A stretch of 59,450 nucleotides of DNA from the NCBI GenBank assembly GCA_021373025.1, contig JAJFTL010000015.1, forward strand, positions 1-59,450, in the 5' to 3' direction. Below, piece after piece: positions 36,844 to 57,825 of the stretch (its first letter is position 1; the number at the start of each line of letters is the position of its first letter). The DNA comes from a bacterium (GTDB taxonomy: Bacteria; Caldisericota; Caldisericia; Cryosericales; Cryosericaceae). Made by a program: the position numbers and the translations under genes. The notes beneath the pieces were generated by a model. It searched no databases. It was not told the origin of the DNA and saw nothing but the letters and a program-made list of their open reading frames with translations.

Positions 36844-36876
36844 TTGTAACATTTGGAACCGTCCCGAATGTTACAA
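36844..36876. repeat. Interspersed inverted repeat, copy 1
   Basis: TTGTAACATT and AATGTTACAA flank a GC-rich core. Its reverse complement nearly matches the sequence at 50714-50746, so this is one copy of a dispersed element. Confidence 0.75.
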
Positions 36877-50713: not shown

Positions 50714-50777
50714 TGTAACATTCGGGACGGTTCCAAAAGTGTAACACTCTCGGGGGCGGCAACGCCCCCGAGAGTGT
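50714..50777. repeat. Interspersed repeat, copy 2, with strong hairpin
   Basis: A 33-nt part (50714-50746) nearly matches the reverse complement of copy 1 near 36.85 kb. It runs into a 14-bp perfect stem, ACACTCTCGGGGGC and its complement (50744-50757 and 50764-50777), with a 6-nt loop. The hairpin probably closes the ABC exporter transcript. Confidence 0.75.
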
Positions 50778-52203: not shown

Positions 52204-52680
52204 ATGCAGATCCTCGTCGTTGCTGATTCGCATGGGGACACATCTAACATTCGGGAGGCGATGCGCCTGCATCCAGACATCGCGCGTGTGCTACACTGCG
52301 GCGACGGGGAGGCGGACGTTGTCGCACTGTCCCGGGCATATCCGCTCGTGGACTTTGACGGTGTGCACGGCAACTGCGACCGCGGTGCACTGTTTCCGCT
52401 TGATCGTCTCCTGCGTATCGGTGGCAGGCGCATCTTCATGACGCATGGCCATTCCTTTGGTATCAACTACGGCGTCGATGGGCTCGTGGAGCAGGCGAAG
52501 AAGGACCGAGCCGACGCGGTCCTCTTCGGACATACGCATCGTCCGCTCATCGAACAGGTGGGTGGCATCCTCTTGGTCAACCCCGGCAGCATTGCCGGCC
52601 GCTTTCCCGCCCGTAAGGCCACTTATGCCATTCTGGACCTGTCAGCAAGCGGCATAACTGCGACAGGCTTCGAACTGTAA
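52204..52680 (+). CDS. YfcE/MJ0936-type metallophosphoesterase
   Basis: 158 residues. All metal-binding motifs are present: DSH (VVADSHGD), GDxE (CGDGEAD), GNCD, THGH and GHTHRP. Family enzymes are small phosphodiesterases with broad activity. GGAGAGG precedes the ATG. Its stop codon lies within repeat copy 3, and it may be co-transcribed with the glycosyltransferase (29-nt gap). Confidence 0.95.
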   Translation: MQILVVADSHGDTSNIREAMRLHPDIARVLHCGDGEADVVALSRAYPLVDFDGVHGNCDRGALFPLDRLLRIGGRRIFMTHGHSFGINYGVDGLVEQAKKDRADAVLFGHTHRPLIEQVGGILLVNPGSIAGRFPARKATYAILDLSASGITATGFEL

Positions 52681-52715
52681 CATGCTCGGGGGCGTTGAAC
52701 TCACATGCTCGGTGC
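52676..52715. repeat. Interspersed repeat, copy 3
   Basis: TGTAACATGCTCGGGGGC followed after 13 nt by a second GCTCGG. The stop codon of the phosphodiesterase is inside the first motif, suggesting insertion at the gene end. A small stem, GATATGC-TCC-GCATATC, follows at 52717-52733. Confidence 0.6.
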
Positions 52716-52831
52716 AGATATGCTCCGCATATCAATTCATCTGTACCACCACGCATCGATTTACCAGCTGACCCCAAGGGAAAAGATCAGTCTGAGGATA
52801 GCGTAGAAGAGCCTGTGTGCAGGACCTGATG

Positions 52832-53656
52832 CTATGGCGCTGGCGGGATGAGTGTCACACTCACGGCACCGAACACTGGATCGCAGCCGTTCCAGCCGCG
52901 CAGCCCCGCCATGCCTGACCTGAAGGTGTCATCGTAAAAGTCCAGGACGACTGCACCATCGATGCTGATGACATGATGACTCCCCTCGACGGCAACGCTG
53001 ATCTCGTGGGGACTGCTCAACGCAGCAGCAACTGGTTCCGGCATGGGGACGGACTGAAAGGGCTCAGACTCAGAGCCATCCGTGACCTTGCGTACGACCA
53101 ACCTCCCAAGACCACGGTCAAACTGGAAACAGTATCCCGTGATGCCAGGCGTGAAACCTGCCTTGCCATCGGCACGGTAGTAGATGCCATAGCCATTTCC
53201 AGCGGCGAGGGCTGCTGTCACATGGACGACATAGTCGGTCCAGCTCAGCTGTCCGAACACGACCCGGTTCTCGTCGTCGGGGTTCCTGAACCGCAAGCTG
53301 CCGTCGGAAACCGTGACCCCCTGCCCGCACAGCACCATGATTCCGCTTGCTGTTCCATCGTAGACAAACGCCGGCGGCTCAATCAGAGCAACAAGGTCCC
53401 TGAGGGCCTTCGCGGCATGGAAGCGGAGCGATGTCCTCGCCGGAATGTCCATCTTCTCTCTCGTCCTGGGATTAACACCGGCGCGAGCAGCACGGGTGGT
53501 GACCTTGAAGGTACCAAAGCCGGCCAGCGTCACCGAATCGCCGTTCTTCATCGCCAAGGAAATAGCGCCGATCATGGCATCGATGGCATGGCCAGTGTCC
53601 TTCTTGGTGAAGCCCGTCCTAGCAGCTACTGCGTTGACAAGATCTGTCTTGTTCAT
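52832..53656 (-). CDS. HU-family DNA-binding protein fused to a lectin-like beta-sandwich domain
   Basis: 274 residues. Residues 1-~92 are a complete HU/IHF protein: MNKTDLVNAVAARTGFTKKD, GDSVTLAGFGTFKVTTRAAR and GVNPRTREKMDIPA with the Pro of the DNA-binding arm. From ~100 a second domain looks like a LamG/DUF1080 jelly roll (TDYVVHVTAALAAGNGYGIY, GYCFQFDRGLGRLVVRKV, ISVAVEGSHHVISIDGAVVL, SGMAGLRGWNGCDPVFG). The ATG at 53656 follows AAAGGAGGTC. HU proteins are usually ~90 residues; such a C-terminal sugar- or ligand-binding-type domain is not standard. There is no signal peptide. Confidence 0.85.
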   Translation of the reverse strand: MNKTDLVNAVAARTGFTKKDTGHAIDAMIGAISLAMKNGDSVTLAGFGTFKVTTRAARAGVNPRTREKMDIPARTSLRFHAAKALRDLVALIEPPAFVYDGTASGIMVLCGQGVTVSDGSLRFRNPDDENRVVFGQLSWTDYVVHVTAALAAGNGYGIYYRADGKAGFTPGITGYCFQFDRGLGRLVVRKVTDGSESEPFQSVPMPEPVAAALSSPHEISVAVEGSHHVISIDGAVVLDFYDDTFRSGMAGLRGWNGCDPVFGAVSVTLIPPAP

Positions 53657-53830
53657 AGTTCTGACCTCCTTTGCCGCTGCGTCTGCACATATCGCTGTGG
53701 CCAAGACTTGCAAAATCATGATACCGCAACTTGAATATAAAATCCACTGATGGACATTGCCAGGAGGTGCCGTCGTGACGCTCCCGCGTTCAGCAGAAGA
53801 CATTGCTCGTGCCTGGAAAGCGTGCTGATG

Positions 53831-53859
53831 TTGCGGCACAAGAGAGAGGGTTGTATACT
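53831..53859 (+). promoter_or_regulatory. Promoter of the ADP-ribosylglycohydrolase gene
   Basis: TTGCGG and TATACT separated by 17 nt. A related stretch (GTTGTATAGTAA) precedes the decayed duplicate of the gene near 57.35 kb. Confidence 0.5.
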
Positions 53860-53911: not shown

Positions 53912-54691
53912 ATGTTGGGAGCGGTGGCAGGTGACATAATCGGATCGGTCTATGAGTTCGATCCCACCAAGAGAACGGATTTTTCTCTGTTCAGCAAACA
54001 TTCGAGCTTCACTGATGACACGGTTCTGACGATGGCCGTGGCAGAGTCGCTGCTCACAGGCCGCCCCTATCAGGAGACACTGCGTGAGTTTGCGCTGGCA
54101 TATCCGGACCGAGGCTTTGGCAGCATGTTCTGGCAGTGGTTCACCACGCCTGGCGCGAGACCCTACAACAGTTTTGGCAACGGGTCAGCCATGCGCGTAA
54201 GTCCTGTAGGTTGGGCGTTCAACACGCTGGAAGAGACCATGGCGGAAGCACAACGGTCCGCCGAAGTAACCCACAACCATCCAGAGGGCATCAAGGGAGC
54301 ACAGTCCGTAGCCGCAGCCATCTTCATGGCGCGCCAGGGGTTGTCGCAGAGCGAGATCCGGGATGCTCTGGAGACCCGGTTCGGGTATAATCTGCACCGT
54401 ACCTATGAGGAGATTCAGCCGTCCTGCTCCTTCGATGAGACCTGCCAACGCTCCGTTCCCGAAGCCCTCATCTGTGTGCTAGGCTCCACGTCGTTCGAGG
54501 ACGCGATCCGCCGTGCTGTTGCCCTGGGTGCCGATGCTGACACGCAGGCGGCCATCGCCGGTTCTGTTGCCGAAGCTCTCTATGGTGGTGTCCCCAAGGA
54601 GATCGCCAGGGAGGCACGCGCGCGCCTGACCCTCCAATTCATTGATATCCTCGACGCATTCCAGGAAAAGTACCACATTGCACGGGCATAG
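53912..54691 (+). CDS. ADP-ribosylglycohydrolase family protein
   Basis: 259 residues. Family motifs in order: MLGAVAGDIIGSVYE, SSFTDDTVLTMAVAESLL with the metal-binding TDD, YNSFGNGSAMRVSPVGW, THNHPEGIKGAQ and RAVALGADADTQAAIAGSVAEA with the second set of metal ligands. Hydrolyses ADP-ribose from proteins or other targets using Mg2+. The ATG at 53912 follows AAGGAGG; the frame is open further upstream without support. A truncated, frameshifted copy lies 3.5 kb downstream. Confidence 0.95.
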   Translation: MLGAVAGDIIGSVYEFDPTKRTDFSLFSKHSSFTDDTVLTMAVAESLLTGRPYQETLREFALAYPDRGFGSMFWQWFTTPGARPYNSFGNGSAMRVSPVGWAFNTLEETMAEAQRSAEVTHNHPEGIKGAQSVAAAIFMARQGLSQSEIRDALETRFGYNLHRTYEEIQPSCSFDETCQRSVPEALICVLGSTSFEDAIRRAVALGADADTQAAIAGSVAEALYGGVPKEIAREARARLTLQFIDILDAFQEKYHIARA

Positions 54692-57408: not shown

Positions 57409-57681
57409 ATGCTAGGGGCAAAACAGGAGACATCATTGGTTCGGTCTATGAACTTCATCCCATCAAGAGGATGGAGTTCCCGTTGTTCAGCACAGGGTCA
57501 GAGTGGACGGACGACACGGTTCTGACTCACGCTGGAAGAGACCATGGCACAACTGCAACGGTCTGCCGAGCTAATCCACAACCACCCTGCGGGCATCAAG
57601 GGGGCGCAGGTAACAGCGGCTGCCATCTTCCTTGCCTGCCAGGGGGCCGGTCAGGGAGAGCCCTGCTCGCAGCGGGATGAG
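57409..57681 (+). pseudogene. Decayed duplicate of the ADP-ribosylglycohydrolase gene
   Basis: From an ATG with GCGAGGAG upstream, the bases follow the intact gene at 53912: GACATCATTGGTTCGGTCTA corresponds to its GDIIGSVYE codons, then GACGACACGGTTCTGAC (TDDTVL). An internal deletion of about 190 nt then joins to ACGCTGGAAGAGACCATGG, running on to AACCACCCTGCGGGCATCAA and the CAGGGG segment. At least two frameshifts and loss of the second half make it non-functional. The promoter area (TTGTATAGT, near 57.35 kb) is also duplicated. Confidence 0.85.
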
Positions 57682-57825
57682 TTCGCCTGTTTGCTTCGTA
57701 CGCTGCTCGCGGCAATTGAGGGTTGCCGCAGAGACATCGAGAAGCACGCCGAGGTTCTGCCTGGTGACGTATGGCATTTGTGCAAGCGCCTTCTGCACAA
57801 TTAAGCGATCCGTCTTTTGCTCCAC
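57571..57825 (-). other. Possible fragment of a helix-turn-helix protein gene
   Basis: Reading from a GTG at 57825, the minus strand encodes RLIVQKALAQMPYVTRQNLG then VLLDVSAATLN, which looks like a winged-helix DNA-binding start. The rest of the frame runs antisense through the decayed glycohydrolase. Probably a remnant gene truncated where the two pieces join. Family unknown; it could be a chance frame. Confidence 0.3.

Follow-up and report, generated by a model that had tools for sequence, protein, structure and literature searches.

A single gene in the 59,450-nucleotide stretch of Cryosericaceae DNA analysed here (the window) encodes an HU nucleoid protein joined, in one reading frame, to a predicted carbohydrate-binding module of the CBM66 type. 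Few bacterial DNA-binding proteins are as conserved as HU, which is almost always free-standing. In no other lineage surveyed was a dedicated lectin domain found on a member of the HU family.

Gene start and HU half

The HU-CBM66 fusion gene lies on the minus strand at 52832..53656 and encodes 274 amino acids followed by a stop. Structurally, it consists of an HU (DNABII) domain (residues 1-90; 53387..53656), a linker predicted to be disordered (residues 91-106; 53339..53386), and a CBM66-like β-sandwich or head (residues about 107-271; 52844..53338), all on the same strand. No stop codon occurs at the join of HU and head. The GC content of the gene is 59.5%, and both GC and GC3 match those of the neighbouring genes. 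A strong and conserved Shine-Dalgarno sequence, AAAGGAGGTC, adjoins the ATG at 53656; the element AAAGGAGGTCA (53662..53672, minus strand), directly 5′ of this ATG, is kept in all three aligned fusion genes. The in-frame stretch further upstream shows a dN/dS of 0.88 between the fusion genome (G000) and its relative G011, has no third-position bias, and contains a hydrophobic run which is absent in G011. An upstream start at GTG 53839, with the hydrophobic segment ILYSSCGIMILQVLATAICA acting as a signal peptide, was considered and rejected because this region is under no coding constraint and the Shine-Dalgarno sequence stands at the ATG. On sequence grounds, ATG 53656 is taken as the true start; therefore, the protein has no signal peptide, as the original prediction had stated. 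The identity of the fusion as a type IV pilin was also rejected, since the N-terminus is HU, there is no class III leader followed by a hydrophobic helix, and the upstream extension is noncoding.

The HU half matches PF00216 over residues 1-89 with an E value of 1.4e-28 and 99.4 bits against a curated Pfam cutoff of 22.4. In the AlphaFold2 model, it is formed by helices 3-14 and 18-37, strands, and a helix at 83-90, and HU structures match the model in Foldseek at a TM score to target of 0.74-0.91. The alignment shows that the arm keeps R55, R58, and the Asn-Pro tip (N62-P63). The claim of a full N-terminal HU with its DNA-binding arm is thus borne out by the domain match, the fold, and the arm residues. 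The usual R53, K59, and R61 of HU are T53, A59, and V61 in the fusion, V61 being common to the resident HU of the same genome. The HU domain of the fusion has a pI of 11 and a net charge of +8, as compared to +15 for the resident HU. Given the neutral T53, A59, and V61, its affinity for DNA may be lowered.

The fusion genome (1.6 Mb, 97.9% complete) also has a normal free-standing HU, on contig C12, so that the fusion represents an extra HU. The HU half shares 44% identity with this resident protein and up to 60% with HUs of Bacillota and other groups. A recent duplication of the resident HU as its origin is not supported, given this 44% identity and a tree placement, itself weakly supported, apart from the HUs of the Caldisericota class. 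The match to PF18291 (HU-HIG) reaches 25.8 bits and falls below the cutoff of 26.2. Elsewhere in the genome (contig C20, 25816-26070), there is a diverged HU-like frame with 33% identity; as it has no obvious start codon, it may represent an HU gene in decay.

Identity and origin of the head domain

The C-terminal part had been predicted to be a lectin-like jelly roll of the LamG/DUF1080 type. Structure prediction and fold search of this part returned a β-sandwich with CBM66 as the best match, so that the fold stands and the assigned type does not. The AlphaFold2 model of the whole protein has a pLDDT of 80 and a pTM of 0.56, with HU and sandwich both confident; pLDDT is below 50 in the linker (92-106) and mostly 75-90 in the β-sandwich (108-269), and the head modelled alone reaches a pTM of 0.81. 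CBM66 takes the first Foldseek rank whether the query is the full-length model or only the domain (TM to target 0.77-0.82); in the domain search, no other among 350,542 chains scores better (TM to target of 0.80-0.82 at an rmsd of 2.3-2.4). As a single sequence, the head matches levanase CBM66 weakly (E 0.02). A nine-member family profile of the head retrieves three B. subtilis levanase CBM66 chains at E 4e-14 and the putative glycosyl hydrolase 4jqt at E 2e-7. LamG/DUF1080 (3-keto-disaccharide hydrolase) was rejected as the identity of the head because the match to PF06439/DUF1080 is 22.3-23.7 bits, below the Pfam cutoff of 26.8, and the enzyme structures rank below CBM66. No NCBIfam match was found for the head domain of the window. 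From profile and predicted fold, the head is better named CBM66-like than generic LamG/DUF1080.

The head (pI 4.7) carries the motifs GYGIYYR, GITGYCFQFD, RK..DG.E, and DFYDDTF.SGMAGLRGW. All family-invariant residues are kept, in head numbering G64-Y65-G66, G83-Y84, F86-Q87, D89, R98, G103, E105, H126, D151, G157, G160, R162, and W164, and the pattern GYG...GY(C/T)FQ(F/Y)D.G...R...G.E...H...D...G..G.R.W is common to pilin-borne and HU-borne heads. The window copy departs from the family in having FQFDRG where FQFDPG is usual. The net charge of the head is −8 to −11 in the fusions versus −2 in the sister pilin domain. This acidity as an adaptation to DNA is suggestive only, as some pilin heads are more acidic.

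All relatives of the head with readable N-termini carry export signals. The head is preceded in them by class III pilin leaders or similar sequences (GFTLIELLIV, or of the GQSILEYSLIIAV type), and the pilins bearing the closest related heads are type IV or Flp-like. Pilin-borne heads occur in Coprothermobacterota (L035), in Thermoleophilia-type Actinomycetota (L036, L037, and genome G082, whose loci are L125/L128), in the Christensenella order (L129), and in three genomes of another family of the same class (L011, L021, and L119). The sole non-pilin exception among the resolved relatives is an exported repeat protein of Christensenella (L079); L124 is cut at a contig edge and resembles the pilin group. 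The weaker matches L126 and L127, together with L120, stand outside this tally. The CBM66-headed pilin subfamily (L129, L125/L128, L036, L037, and L035) is thinly spread over several phyla, with two members in tandem in G082, and is apparently without a curated family of its own.

In the tree, the three fusions cluster (94/97) as sister to the Coprothermobacterota pilin head (95/92), within the pilin group. Because the fusion clade nests inside the pilin-head group, the most economical interpretation is that a pilin lectin head was captured by an HU gene, the export signal appearing to have been lost. Viral, plasmid, or phage spread of the head was considered and rejected, no match to the head domain being found in viral contigs, phages, or plasmids.

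Relatives, selection, and genomic slot

Among the nearest relatives, those with named records are Caldiserica metagenome-assembled genomes (MAGs) from Lac Pavin. The fusion occurs in three genomes, all of one genus, of which the two named ones, G011 and G010, are MAGs. In G011 (JAPLGL010000100), it is intact and in frame, with 71% identity over 271 amino acids. In G010 (JAPLGH010000073), it is broken between two contigs, which overlap at their ends within the HU half. It was not found in the remaining genomes of the genus among 14 examined; free HUs are present in three of these, G004, G009, and G013, whose completeness is 91-96%. Between G000 and G011, the Nei-Gojobori dN/dS of the HU part is 0.18 and that of the head 0.31. 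Between G011 and G010, the ratio is 0.66 on few changes and carries little information on selection. Since the fusion is common to these relatives with a low dN/dS, both halves are judged from the sequences to be under purifying selection in one reading frame, and the join of HU and head is judged older than the split of the fusion-bearing genomes. That the fusion is an artefact of sequencing or assembly, or really two separate genes, might be suspected from the MAG status of the named relatives and from the break of the G010 copy at contig ends. Against this stand the intact frames in two assemblies, which differ by a synonymous excess at 71% protein identity, the overlap of the G010 contig ends within HU, and the uninterrupted join, and the possibility of an artefact is practically negligible.

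A search for other HU-jelly-roll fusions was rewarded in G010 and G011 and yielded none outside the genus. No HU-CBM66 fusion outside the genus was found in 54 genomes of the phylum, nor was any found in the sampled 299 genomes of the Thermoleophilia-type class, 200 of the Christensenella order, and 399 of its phylum; these surveys beyond the phylum are samples with strict cutoffs of 1e-20 to 1e-25, which remote fusions could escape. A scan of 85k species, which could likewise overlook remote fusions, used exact peptides of the fusion protein as queries (80 of its 295 confirmed matches are listed), and all 74 free HU matches checked in the genome scan are 87-92 amino acids long with nothing attached. 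No open paper on an HU with a carbohydrate-binding module was found, which is a weak test.

The gene is flanked, both on the plus strand, by a YfcE-like metallophosphoesterase (52204..52680; PF12850, E 2e-33) and by a divergently transcribed ADP-ribosylglycohydrolase (53912..54691; PF03747, E 5e-35), each conserved with or without the fusion. Between them, BLASTN blocks delimit an accessory insert of approximate limits 52683..53853. In G002 (C36, L154), the slot is near-empty, the two flanking genes lying about 270 bp apart with no such gene between them. A fabK-fabZ-fabH cluster occupies it in G001 (C37) and G009 (C14), and G007 has a similarly sized gap. As the slot is a variable site, the neighbour is not evidence of function. 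The original prediction had read the adjacent ADP-ribosylglycohydrolase as a hint of a role in chromatin, modification, or ADP-ribose recognition. This reading is not supported, and a functional tie between the two genes was rejected: the neighbour is divergently oriented, occurs at 79-82% identity in five fusion-less genomes (G001, G002, G007, G009, and G013), and was not found in the fusion-bearing G010 (71% complete), so that genomes with either gene alone exist beside the near-empty site of G002. In G010, one of the two contigs places the fusion next to an AAA ATPase and the other next to a RelE-like toxin-antitoxin pair, both named by reading the sequence. In the window, a glycosyltransferase lies two genes from the fusion, and no other sugar-metabolism gene directly adjoins it.

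Two side observations may be added. A short repeat with GGGACGGTTCCA is seen near intergenic sites (window 36854-36865 and 50724-50735; L158 2029-2040 and 2927-2973; L154 737-748; L132 6171-6182 and 7831-7842), in L158 beside a gene resembling a REP-associated (Y1-type) transposase and, as one copy in G002, inside the slot. Allowing up to 2 mismatches, its count in the window does not exceed chance expectation. In addition, an ORF at window 57544-57804 resembles an internal piece of an ADP-ribosylglycohydrolase (RSAELIHNHPAGIKGAQ), possibly the remnant of a second copy.

Possible role and comparison with known systems

HU dimers bind DNA without much sequence preference. The fusion HU would likewise dimerize and bind or bend DNA via its kept arm, each dimer bearing two CBM66 heads on flexible linkers. 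Because they retain the family-invariant residues, the heads would bind the ends of a carbohydrate, probably one similar to that recognized by their relatives on pilins. In this way, the dimer would link DNA to glycan. Members of CBM66 bind polysaccharides such as fructan ends and XLT-xanthan (PMC11002231), and glycan binding has been proven for the lectin module carried by the pilin PilC of S. sanguinis (PMC9934059). Extracellular HU is widespread and occurs in biofilms together with extracellular DNA (eDNA); ligands of HU-family proteins include LPS, lipoteichoic acid, and hyaluronic acid (PMC9445418). Taken together, the likeliest function of the fusion is that of a bifunctional DNA-glycan adaptor, wherever it acts, a proposal in which belief and doubt are evenly balanced. 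The place of action is its least certain part. The extracellular matrix or the cell surface is favoured over the cytoplasm, though only tentatively. There, the protein would be released with DNA like other DNABII proteins and would glue eDNA to exopolysaccharide, which assumes that it leaves the cell without a signal peptide, a route with precedents among HU proteins. It is possible, if rather doubtful, that the protein is a purpose-built, two-headed DNA-polysaccharide cross-linker, in which the pilus stalk has been swapped for HU and which joins DNA, probably extracellular, to one specific carbohydrate.

The cytoplasmic form of the adaptor idea, differing in place and purpose, requires an internal ligand. 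The heads would bind, in the cytosol, a small sugar, a sugar phosphate, or a storage polysaccharide, the ligand would alter the hold of the HU dimer on DNA, and nucleoid structure or transcription would follow the carbohydrate status of the cell. The missing signal peptide, the normally cytoplasmic location of HU, and the flexible linker of the model fit such a protein. It is nonetheless unlikely, as the head has exported relatives, CBM66 modules are known for binding polysaccharides, and the variable slot offers no directly adjoining sugar-metabolism gene, bar the glycosyltransferase two genes off.

A chance fusion in which the head is a passenger is improbable as well. HU would work as usual, and the acidic CBM66 tail, without a ligand, would cut DNA affinity or aid solubility; CBM66 serves well as a solubility tag in E. 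coli (PMC8715580), the fusion heads are more acidic than the sister pilin domain, and of the two halves, the head has the higher dN/dS. Yet the head is under purifying selection and keeps the family-invariant residues across lineages about 29% diverged, and some pilin heads are also acidic. More remote still is a defensive or modified-DNA reader, whose head would recognize glycosylated bases, for example of phage DNA, after HU binds, as a sensor or shield. An accessory, patchy gene in an intergenic slot which takes other cargo too, and the presence of lectin and DNA-binding domain together, would suit this role; the lack of any head match in viral contigs, phages, or plasmids, the absence from the protein of any effector domain, such as a nuclease or toxin, and the housekeeping-like appearance of the neighbour genes argue against it.

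Whatever its role, an HU-lectin fusion under selection offers a natural, testable example of a nucleoid protein that has its own carbohydrate reader. The case is relevant to the function of HU outside cells, where eDNA and polysaccharide meet in the biofilm matrix, and it illustrates the transfer of a pilin head module to a carrier of another kind.

As compared to HU/DNABII proteins (PF00216), the fusion shares the full 90-residue fold, the arm, and the Asn-Pro tip but carries in addition a 180-residue carbohydrate-binding module. CBM66 is the fructan-binding module of Bacillus levanase. The head resembles the CBM66 of the B. subtilis levanase SacC (PDB 4azz, 4b1l, and 4b1m) in fold (TM 0.8) and profile, whereas identity is about 19% and the fusion has neither the GH32 enzyme nor an export signal. 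Lectin-headed type IV pilins (L035-L037) bear heads of the same subfamily, with 42-53% identity, downstream of the pilin part; the fusion has HU in place of pilin leader and stalk. The lectin of S. sanguinis PilC is a ConA-like module. HU-HIG and HU-CCDC81 (PF18291, PF18289, and PF14908) also contain a domain of the HU superfamily, which HU-HIG combines with other modules, but the fusion matches them weakly, below curated cutoffs, and these families are not known to carry CBM66. Mycobacterial MDP1/HupB and streptococcal HlpA are not known to have a dedicated lectin domain. These two resemble the fusion, as proposed here, in being HU proteins of reported extracellular occurrence which bind polysaccharide or lipoteichoic acid (PMC9445418).
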